From an uncultured Bacteroidota bacterium (GTDB lineage Bacteria; Bacteroidota; Bacteroidia; Flavobacteriales; Flavobacteriaceae), in the NCBI GenBank assembly GCA_903861155.1, contig CAIOTL010000248.1, positions 1 through 43,005 of the forward strand: 43,005 nt of DNA, in the 5' to 3' direction. Below are positions 34,473-38,116 of the stretch, piece by piece (the stretch's first letter is position 1; each line of letters begins with the position of its first letter). The notes under the pieces are model-generated. The model was not told the DNA's origin, ran no database searches, and worked only from the letters and a program-made list of their open reading frames with translations. The position numbers were made by a program, and so were the translations under genes.

Positions 34473-34489
34473 ACAAACTCAATAACAAA

Positions 34490-36457
34490 ATGCAATTCAA
34501 ACATCCAGAAATCCTCTATTTCCTTTTCTTATTGGTTATACCAATTCTGGTTCATTTGTTTCAATTACGCCGTTTCAAAAAGGAATATTTCACGAATGTT
34601 CGCTTCCTGAAAGAACTTTCCATTCAAACCAGAAAGAGTTCAAAAATTAAAAAATGGCTGCTTTTGGCCACGCGTTTATTATTGTTATCCTGTATCATTG
34701 TCGCATTTGCGCAACCTTTTTTCAAAGCCAAAGACACCAAAAACAGCTACAACGAAATGTATATCGTTTTGGACAATTCCTTTTCGATGCAAGCCAAAGG
34801 TCAAAAAGGTGAATTGCTAAAAAGAGCCGTTCAAGAATTGCTCGAAAATACGCCAGAAAACCAAACTTTTTCCCTGATTACCAATTCCCAAACTTTCTGG
34901 AACACCAATATAAAATCAATCCAAAAAGAACTGCAAAATCTTAAATACAGTGCTTTTCCATTCCAACTGGAAAGCGCCATGACAAAAATAAAATCCCGAA
35001 AATTAGCATTTAACAAAGATATTATCGTGATTACGGATGCGGTTGGTTTAGAACCAAAACAACTAAAAAGCATCGACAAAAGTTTCAATACCTATTTTAT
35101 TATTCCGAAAGCGGAACATAAAAATAACGTTTCCATTGATAGCGTTTTCATTCATCAAACTTTGGACGAATTCTATGAAATTGGCCTAAAATTAAGTGCT
35201 TATGGCGAAAATTCCAAGGAGACTCCAGTAGCTTTATACAATCAAAATAAACTGGTTGCAAAGACTTTGACCAAATTAGAAACCAAGAACCCGAGTCCCA
35301 GTAATTATCGGAACGAACTGGCGAAGCAAAAAACACTTTATTTCACCATTCCAAAAAAAGATTTCCACGGCTATGCCTCCATCACTGACAACGGTTTGGA
35401 ATATGACAATACCTTGTATTTCAGTATTTCAAAACCCGAAAAAAGCAACGTAATCAGCATTGGTACAACCGAAAAAAGCAAATTTATTTCTAGAATTTAC
35501 ACGAGCGATGAATTCAATTACAGCAATTTTACCATAGCAACATTAGATTATAATTCGCTCGAAAAACAAGATGCTATAGTGTTGAACGAATTGGACGAAG
35601 TCCCGCAAGCGTTGCAAACGACTTTGAACTCTTTTGTGGAAAAAGGCGGGAATTTGGTGATAATTCCTTCGGCTACAAATTCTGTTGAAAACCTGAATCA
35701 GTTTCTGATGAATTTTGGTTCTTTCCAATTCAAATCATTGGAAAACAAGGAGAAATTGGTGACTAAAATCAACTTCAACCATCCTTTATTTTCCGGCGTT
35801 TTCGAAAACAAAATTGATAATTTTCAGTATCCAAAAACAAAAAATTCCTTCGGAATTTCAAGTTCCAAGCCGGCTGCTTTGCATTATGACGACCAAAGCT
35901 CTTTTTTGACTTCGATAAACAATCCAATTTCGGCTGTATATGTTTTTGCTGCGCCAATCAATCTGGCGAATTCCAATTTTCAACAATCGCCTCTGATCGT
36001 GCCAACCTTCTTTAAAATGGCAATCAACAATCGAAATAAGGGAATAAATGCGCTCACAATTGGCAACAATAATCCGTTTTTGGTTGATGCAACTTTGTCC
36101 AAAGACGAAATTTTGAATGTCAAAAATGATACGGAGACATTTATTCCGATTCAACAAATCCTGAACAATAAGGTGAAATTGACCTTCAATGATTATCCGG
36201 TGCAAGCGGGCAACTTTAGGATTTACAGACAAAAAGAATGGCTGCAAAACATCAGTTTCAACTATAATCGAACCGAAAGTGATTTGAATCAAGCTAACGA
36301 AAATATGCTTTCCGATTATAAAAAAATCGATGCTATCAACTCCGTTTTCGACACTTTAAAAACCAACAAAAACGACATTCAAATATGGAAATGGTTTGCT
36401 ATATTTGCATTGCTTTTTCTAGCAATCGAAATGGCAATTATACGATTCGTGAAGTGA
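34490..36457 (+). CDS. BatA-domain (N-terminal double-TM, VWA-like) membrane protein
   Basis: MQFKHPEILYFLFLLVIPILVHLFQLRRFKKEYFTNVRFLKEL; YIVLDNSFSM; C-terminal TM. Confidence 0.88.
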   Translation: MQFKHPEILYFLFLLVIPILVHLFQLRRFKKEYFTNVRFLKELSIQTRKSSKIKKWLLLATRLLLLSCIIVAFAQPFFKAKDTKNSYNEMYIVLDNSFSMQAKGQKGELLKRAVQELLENTPENQTFSLITNSQTFWNTNIKSIQKELQNLKYSAFPFQLESAMTKIKSRKLAFNKDIIVITDAVGLEPKQLKSIDKSFNTYFIIPKAEHKNNVSIDSVFIHQTLDEFYEIGLKLSAYGENSKETPVALYNQNKLVAKTLTKLETKNPSPSNYRNELAKQKTLYFTIPKKDFHGYASITDNGLEYDNTLYFSISKPEKSNVISIGTTEKSKFISRIYTSDEFNYSNFTIATLDYNSLEKQDAIVLNELDEVPQALQTTLNSFVEKGGNLVIIPSATNSVENLNQFLMNFGSFQFKSLENKEKLVTKINFNHPLFSGVFENKIDNFQYPKTKNSFGISSSKPAALHYDDQSSFLTSINNPISAVYVFAAPINLANSNFQQSPLIVPTFFKMAINNRNKGINALTIGNNNPFLVDATLSKDEILNVKNDTETFIPIQQILNNKVKLTFNDYPVQAGNFRIYRQKEWLQNISFNYNRTESDLNQANENMLSDYKKIDAINSVFDTLKTNKNDIQIWKWFAIFALLFLAIEMAIIRFVK

Positions 36458-36486: not shown

Positions 36487-37740
36487 ATGAAAATAATTAT
36501 CAGGGAAGCAAAAATCATCGATTCCGAAAGTCCTTTTCACAACAAAACAGTTGACCTTTTAATTGTTGATAGCAGTATCAAAAAAATAGGAAAATCGCTG
36601 ACTAATTCAGAAAATTCGAAAGAAATTAAACTCGATAACCTACATATTTCCCAAGGTTGGTTCGACAGCAGCGTTTCGCTTGGCGAACCTGGTTTTGAAG
36701 ATCGGGAAACCATTGCAAACGGATTAAATGTTGCCGCACGAAGCGGTTTTACAGCCATTGCATTGCAACCCAACTCCTTCCCGATTATCGACAATCAATC
36801 GCAAATTAACTTTGTAAAAAACAAAGCCAATGGTTTTGCTACACAACTTTTTCCGATTGGCGCTTTGACAAAAAATAGCGAATGCAAGGATATGACCGAA
36901 TTATTCGATATGAAAAATGCTGGAGCCGTGGCTTTTGGAGATTACAACAAGAGTTTGGACAATGCCAATTTACTAAAAATTGCCCTACAATATGTTCAAG
37001 ATTTTGACGGATTAATTATTGCTTTCTCACAAGAGTCGAACCTAAAAGGAAGTGGGGTTGCTAATGAAAGCGTGGTTTCGACAAAACTGGGATTGAAAGG
37101 AATTCCGAATCTGGCTGAAGAATTACAAATTGACAGAAACTTGTTTCTACTGGAATACACAGGCGGAAAACTGCACATTCCGACAATTTCTACTGCAAAA
37201 TCCGTACAACTAATCAAAGAAGCAAAAGCCAAAGGTTTGAACGTAACTTGCAGTGTTGCCGTGCATCATTTGGTTTTAACCGATAAGAAAATAGAAGGTT
37301 TCGATACCAGATATAAAGTTTCGCCGCCATTGAGAACTGAAACTGACAGAAAAGCGTTGATTGCCGGAATTCTCGATAATACAATCGATATGATTACTTC
37401 TGATCACAATCCAATAGATATTGAACATAAAAAAATGGAATTTGATTTGGCCAAAGACGGAACCATTGGTTTAGAAAGTGCTTTTGGTGCATTGTTAACC
37501 GTTTTGCCTTTAGAAAAGGTAATCGAAAAATTGACAGCTGGAAAAACAACTTTCGGAATAAATAAAACTTCAATAATTGAAGGAGAAAAGGCAAACATTA
37601 CCTTGTTCAATCCTGAAGGAAAAAGTACTTTCGCCAAAGAAAACATCTTGTCGAAATCAAAAAATTCGGCTTTTCTTGAAATAGAAATGAAAGGAAAAGT
37701 ATATGGAATTTACAATCAGGGGAAATTAATTTTAAACTAA
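36487..37740 (+). CDS. Dihydroorotase homolog with altered metal site
   Basis: Amidohydrolase fold markers GEPGFEDRETI, VAVHHLVLTD, MITSDHNPI; DxHxH replaced by DSSVS. Confidence 0.85.
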   Translation: MKIIIREAKIIDSESPFHNKTVDLLIVDSSIKKIGKSLTNSENSKEIKLDNLHISQGWFDSSVSLGEPGFEDRETIANGLNVAARSGFTAIALQPNSFPIIDNQSQINFVKNKANGFATQLFPIGALTKNSECKDMTELFDMKNAGAVAFGDYNKSLDNANLLKIALQYVQDFDGLIIAFSQESNLKGSGVANESVVSTKLGLKGIPNLAEELQIDRNLFLLEYTGGKLHIPTISTAKSVQLIKEAKAKGLNVTCSVAVHHLVLTDKKIEGFDTRYKVSPPLRTETDRKALIAGILDNTIDMITSDHNPIDIEHKKMEFDLAKDGTIGLESAFGALLTVLPLEKVIEKLTAGKTTFGINKTSIIEGEKANITLFNPEGKSTFAKENILSKSKNSAFLEIEMKGKVYGIYNQGKLILN

Positions 37741-37792: not shown

Positions 37793-38116
37793 ATGAACAG
37801 CATCGAAAAGGGAAAAACTGCCGCCATAACAAGCTATATTTTAATCATTGGAGTCTTCATTGCAATGTCGATGAATTCTGAAAACAAGAATTCGTTTGCT
37901 TCCTTTCATATTCGTCAAGCGTTGGGTTTATCGATTACTTTTATTTCGTTGGGATTGATAATCAGCAATTTTGACAGTCCAATGATTTCGATCTCGATGT
38001 GGGTTTTTCTCTCTGTTTTATGGACTTATGGAATTTTTAGTGCCATAAACGGTGAAACAAAACCGATTCCTTTATTGGGAAATTATTTTCAAAAATGGTT
38101 TGTGAAAATAACTTAG
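37793..38116 (+). CDS. Small multi-TM protein (DUF4870-like)
   Basis: FASFHIRQALGLSITFISLGLII and FSAINGETKPIPLLGNYFQKWF. Confidence 0.65.
   Translation: MNSIEKGKTAAITSYILIIGVFIAMSMNSENKNSFASFHIRQALGLSITFISLGLIISNFDSPMISISMWVFLSVLWTYGIFSAINGETKPIPLLGNYFQKWFVKIT

Follow-up and report, generated by a model that had tools for sequence, protein, structure and literature searches.

What does a cell keep a dihydroorotase for once the residues that hold the metal and the substrate are gone? The question is raised by an open reading frame in the 43,005-nucleotide stretch of Flavobacteriaceae DNA analyzed herein (the window), the features of which are collected in Table 1. The best NCBIfam matches of its product are all dihydroorotase models, with the TIGR00857 score of 277.4 bits lying just below the cut-off of 279.05, and its closest PDB relatives (3mpg, 4yiw, and 3d6n) are type-I dihydroorotases.

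Table 1. Positions in the window of the dihydroorotase-like gene, its active-site codons, and its neighbors
Feature	Positions	Strand	Remark
Pseudo-dihydroorotase ORF, 417 aa	36487..37740	+	uninterrupted; predicted type-I dihydroorotase fold, dead active site
DSSVSLGEPG replacing DxHxHxREPG (S62, S64, G66; residues 60-69)	36664..36693	+	alignment
D152, at the D151 position, retained	36940..36942	+	57/58 in own family
F180, replacing metal ligand H178	37024..37026	+	alignment to solved enzymes
T233, replacing metal ligand H231	37183..37185	+	alignment to solved enzymes
D306, at the D304 position, retained; lost in many other Bacteroidia lineages	37402..37404	+	
I310, replacing substrate-binding H308	37414..37416	+	His occupies this position in 21/21 intact enzymes and in 7% of pseudo-enzymes
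BatA-like membrane protein (PF07584)	34487..36457	+	conserved neighbor in most of the class
107-aa small protein, no Pfam family	37793..38116	+	downstream neighbor, conserved within the family

A reading made from the sequence alone had proposed that both histidines of the metal-binding motif are serine, that its arginine is glycine, and that the frame is nonetheless intact, all of which is exactly what the DNA encodes. The further suggestion that later regions of the enzyme remain was borne out for D152 and D306 and failed for the later metal histidines (now F180 and T233) and substrate residues (now I310 and S279). Specifically, in the numbering of the Bacillus anthracis enzyme, H59, H61, R63, H178, H231, and H308 have given way to S, S, G, F, T, and I, substrate residue N277 is replaced by S279 in the alignment to solved dihydroorotases, and D151 and D304 are the catalytic residues left. 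As judged by alignment, the loss spans the whole active site beyond the HxHxR motif, with the two aspartates excepted, and the protein does not carry the set that marks catalytic type-I dihydroorotases (HxHxR, two later His, the Asp bridge, and the catalytic Asp). It is thus a catalytically dead type-I homolog (hereafter, pseudo-dihydroorotase) and almost certainly not a dihydroorotase.

The predicted fold is that of the enzyme, a TIM barrel with a composite N/C domain. An AlphaFold2 model (mean pLDDT of 91.6) found its best Foldseek matches, over the full length, in 4yiw (B. anthracis) and 3d6n (Aquifex, from an ATCase complex), with a TM of 0.94 to each. The gene is under strong purifying selection, with a dN/dS of 0.05-0.09 against and among congeners (usable pairs, as synonymous sites are near saturation in more distant ones). 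Comparison with named genomes assigns the window to Flavobacterium. The Ser/Ser/Gly state occurs in 75 of 79 Flavobacterium species, and S/C/G occurs in the other four, so it is not an assembly error; the conservation holds within the genus, and other Bacteroidia lineages carry different replacements. Flavobacterium-like copies, 78-86% identical, were also met in metagenome-assembled records titled Klebsiella, Rhizobium, Chitinophaga, or Sphingobacterium (L258, L291, L302, L309, and L326), bins that are probably mislabelled or contaminated.

The window genome (G000; 95.7% complete) encodes a second dihydroorotase elsewhere (G000:C47, locus L002, 1492-2832), and the possibility that the window protein is the organism's sole dihydroorotase was therefore rejected. 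L002 scores 725 bits against PRK09236 (cut-off of 535) and belongs to the PRK09236/2gwn type, a member of the dihydroorotase superfamily that is 27% identical to the window protein and falls in a different clade. Its retained residues are the substrate Arg, the catalytic Asp, and three His of the original four (that of QxHxR and the two later ones), and these are invariant in the 11 sequences of the type examined. The first metal His is Gln (DDQVHFREPG), and the only structure met for the type is a structural-genomics entry, 2gwn of Porphyromonas gingivalis. A second pyrC with an intact HxH, which the sequence-only reading had proposed to look for, was thus found in the form of a second dihydroorotase with a QxH motif instead. 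In the sister family f2, probably the Weeksellaceae, the QxHxR type was the only dihydroorotase found in PyrB-bearing genomes (most f2 genomes with a match), and it is therefore presumably catalytic; by its retained residues, L002 is presumably the catalytic dihydroorotase of the window genome as well. The presence of L002, together with the lost site, supports the earlier proposal that the window protein is not the catalytic enzyme and disposes of the objection that the genome might hold no other.

Orthologs were gathered from the organism's own family (f1, that of Flavobacterium), other Bacteroidia families, and the rest of the phylum. Among them, 141 were neither full-site nor QxH-type sequences; three of these are other dihydroorotase-like proteins (L041, L069, and L072), and the remaining 138 are pseudo-enzymes, nearly all from Bacteroidia. 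None of the 138 has a full catalytic site, most keeping two of the seven catalytic residues and a few members of the class keeping five, while all 21 intact sequences, which fall outside the pseudo clade and comprise L065, L077, and 19 sequences from elsewhere in the phylum, carry the complete set. The replacements are lineage-specific: S/S/G in the own family and N/N/G, F/H/C, Q/N/R, R/N/C, and others elsewhere. In the tree, the pseudo-enzymes group together in one clade, for which one change from intact to eroded accounts (clade support of 100/100 in a further tree). The metal site was thus lost once, at the base of the Bacteroidia, and later erosion has differed by lineage. Columns lost relative to the intact enzymes are essentially catalytic, while EPG, E194/P207/E211, PPLR, and others stay, and the same column comparison yielded no new conserved polar set in the pseudo-enzymes, a pattern that fits a kept scaffold. 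One eroded sequence from outside the class (L120 of G343, family f30) lay inside the pseudo clade in one tree and among the intact enzymes in another, and hence may reflect a separate, independent inactivation. One plasmid-borne relative from Bacteroidota is annotated as a dihydroorotase.

The distribution of the pseudo-dihydroorotase tracks the type of PyrB, the aspartate transcarbamoylase (ATCase) chain. In a sample of 119 genomes of the class, in which a PyrB counted as resident at an identity of at least 59%, the resident type was accompanied by the pseudo-dihydroorotase in 100 of 103 genomes (three were without it), and the gene occurred in none of the 16 genomes with no PyrB or another type (Fisher p of ~4e-17, with relatedness ignored). 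Within the own family, at a completeness of at least 90%, 209 genomes carry both genes (the PyrB type was read in part of them), two have neither (G129 and G210), and one (G236) has PyrB-PyrI and no pseudo-dihydroorotase. This pattern is repeated across roughly a dozen lineages. PyrB and pseudo-dihydroorotase were lost together in families f55, f61, and f74 and in genomes G129, G210, and G408; a PyrBI replacement without the pseudo-gene is seen in f68 and f88 and, inside the own family, in G236; and G571 has a class-B-type replacement, with no PyrI on the stretch read. A Bacillus-type PyrB (348 bits to 3r7d) stands without a pseudo-dihydroorotase in f2, as do diverged PyrBs in f77 and f84, that of f84 being closest in the PDB to the Aquifex ATCase. 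Also among the 16 is G319, with an intact dihydroorotase adjoining a different PyrB. The PyrBs from genomes that carry the pseudo-gene fall into one clade (SH-aLRT of 80, or 88 with the f64 exception included). That exception concerns two good genomes, G511 and G579, in which a fast-evolving PyrB derived from the resident type has no pseudo-dihydroorotase match at E<=1e-30, a threshold at which a weaker match may be missed. A full pseudo-gene was likewise not found in G015, G090, G142, G113, and G580, which are incomplete assemblies (G580 is 81% complete).

Several PyrB lineages deserve separate mention. The PyrBs of f64, f77, and f84 (L174-L180), without a pseudo-dihydroorotase, have unusually long branches (0.6-1.4, where the median end branch is 0.17), reflecting either replacement or adaptation to life without a partner. 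In one genome each of f2 and f9 (L157 of G470 and L156 of G319, respectively), pyrB is paired with a pyrC whose product retains an intact HxHxR; these dihydroorotases group in the tree with Bacillus and Collinsella, respectively. In G236, a pyrimidine cluster of another type (L041 on C17) combines PyrB-PyrI, a fused PyrE/PyrF-like ORF, and a different dihydroorotase; the genome gave no match for the native PyrB, the QxH PyrC, or the pseudo-dihydroorotase, and the cluster represents either transfer or contamination.

Gene order offers a view of the ancestral arrangement. In genomes from outside the class, the intact ortholog frequently lies directly downstream of pyrB, its start no more than a few bases from the pyrB end, and the PyrBs so linked are 44-60% identical to that of the window genome. 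In the latter, the pseudo-gene lies on contig C248 and pyrB, following pyrR, on C77, so that the direct downstream position is absent; linkage to pyrB is not essential to a class-A2-like mechanism. Within Bacteroidia, the gene usually adjoins the BatA-like gene (in Flavobacteriaceae as in the majority of the other families sampled), with different neighbors in f4 (DUF4199 and a glycosyltransferase), L199 (DusB), and L207 (PanB). Across pairwise distances from 15 genomes, the partial correlation of PyrB with the pseudo-dihydroorotase given BatA was 0.61, and that of the pseudo-dihydroorotase with BatA given PyrB was 0.20; this is weak evidence, given that relatedness was only partly controlled.

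Class A ATCases are dodecamers, in which ATCase trimers are bridged by dihydroorotase dimers, and class A2 is the form with a dead dihydroorotase chain (PMC7053772). Without that chain, the ATCase of Pseudomonas aeruginosa is a monomer and has no activity (PMC7053772). The Pseudomonas chain (PyrC', or pDHO; PMC7053772, and Schurr 1995 cited there) is, like the window protein, a type-I homolog of ~45 kDa without catalytic residues, and the existence of each is tied to a PyrB. Several further marks of class A2 recur here: the homolog lacks both metal and substrate residues, the genome encodes, by its sequence, a separate catalytic dihydroorotase (L002), and co-occurrence points to genetic dependence on PyrB, with G511 and G579 excepted. 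The resident PyrB itself matches 6pnz (204 bits), 3d6n (199 bits; the Aquifex ATCase chain, second best), and 2at2 (190 bits) in the PDB and does not classify as a class C (Bacillus-type) ATCase. A PyrI-based class B enzyme was rejected for the window genome, which has no TIGR00240 match. The Aquifex aeolicus class A1 reactor of ATCase and dihydroorotase (3d6n and 4bjh) shares the fold (TM of 0.94) and dihydroorotase type of the window protein, but its dihydroorotase is catalytic once in the complex, whereas the metal site is missing from the window protein. In the fungal CAD-like/Ura2 protein (5nnl), an inactive dihydroorotase is kept beside ATCase, as we propose here, although as a fused domain of one polypeptide with a weak sequence match (E of 0.00029). 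In the literature searched, subscription journals lying mostly outside it, neither a pseudo-dihydroorotase nor a class A ATCase was reported for Bacteroidetes.

The proteobacterial eroded dihydroorotases (from Azospirillum, Sinorhizobium, Shinella, Ruegeria, and Acinetobacter) differ in that pyrB lies directly upstream in the examples examined, whereas the Bacteroidia gene is unlinked, and they form a clade apart from the Bacteroidia pseudo-enzymes. Because forcing the two together costs 21-24 log units, with an AU p for joint origin of 0.062 (all sequences) or 0.034 (four long-branch sequences removed), a common origin is only moderately disfavored, and independent inactivation is favored without being settled. 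The trees thus lend moderate support to a Bacteroidia pseudo-subunit that evolved independently of the proteobacterial ones.

Taken together, these results lead us to a reading to which we assign a probability of about 0.8, that the window protein is the non-catalytic partner subunit, acting in assembly, stability, and/or regulation, of the resident class-A2-like PyrB. The sequence-only reading had called the protein structural or neofunctionalised; the structural ATCase option is now favored because gene presence and absence follow PyrB type across Bacteroidia. The ancestor would have carried an A1-type arrangement in which an active pyrC followed pyrB. A PyrC from another clade (the QxHxR type) would have taken over dihydroorotase catalysis early in the Bacteroidia. 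The old subunit, having lost its metal site at the class base, would have preserved its fold along with the conserved residues outside catalysis, while its gene became separated from pyrB. It would have been retained because the resident PyrB needs a partner, as PyrB does in class A. The mechanism is most likely, by analogy, that of the P. aeruginosa class A2 ATCase, such that the protein would bind PyrB physically in a dodecameric form and PyrB would be inactive without it. Points against a PyrB partner are the unlinked pyrB, the BatA-like gene as usual neighbor, the f64 exceptions, and the diverged PyrBs of f77 and f84 that persist without a partner.

The constancy of the BatA-like neighbor raises the alternative of a partner or regulator of that membrane protein, unrelated to pyrimidines, but the neighbor changes in f4, L199, and L207, presence follows PyrB type, and the distances of the pseudo-dihydroorotase track PyrB rather than BatA, leaving this improbable. 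Slightly less probable still is a role as a subunit, itself non-catalytic, in a hetero-oligomer with the second dihydroorotase. The QxHxR PyrC co-occurs with the pseudo-dihydroorotase in nearly all Bacteroidia genomes sampled and deviates at its first metal His, but most f2 genomes with a match have the QxH enzyme alone, with PyrB present, so the enzyme does not need the pseudo-dihydroorotase, and the ancestral gene order pairs the family with PyrB.

About equally unlikely is that the protein is still an enzyme, with another metal arrangement or another substrate. The barrel and the D151 and D304 positions are kept in the own family, and a few class members retain five of the seven residues; against this, the metal His, substrate Arg, and H308 have been replaced differently in each lineage, as in a relaxed site, D304 is also lost in many lineages, and new conserved polar residues did not emerge. 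A sequencing artefact or decaying pseudogene was rejected as having next to no probability: beyond the odd motif, such a reading could draw on frames split in two in single relatives (L186 of G538 and L062 of G055), which may be sequencing frameshifts, but the residues are shared by 79 Flavobacterium species, the frames are intact class-wide, and dN/dS is low. With a partner subunit of PyrB retained as the preferred reading, a bolder extension, which we regard as rather doubtful, is a Bacteroidia-wide, hidden, and independently evolved class-A2 ATCase, its obligate dead subunit encoded apart from pyrB and usually beside a BatA-like gene; the pseudo-subunit may then be regulatory, its eroding site serving as a lineage-specific effector or docking site.

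Curated models thus score the window protein as a dihydroorotase, which it almost certainly is not. If the partner reading is true, the first committed pyrimidine step in most of a major bacterial class would depend on a pseudoenzyme, and the Pseudomonas-type arrangement would have had an apparently separate origin. Several natural ATCase replacements, each accompanied by loss of the pseudo-subunit, make this dependence directly testable. The family would also be a clear instance of a scaffold derived from a metabolic enzyme, with its active site decaying along many lineages.
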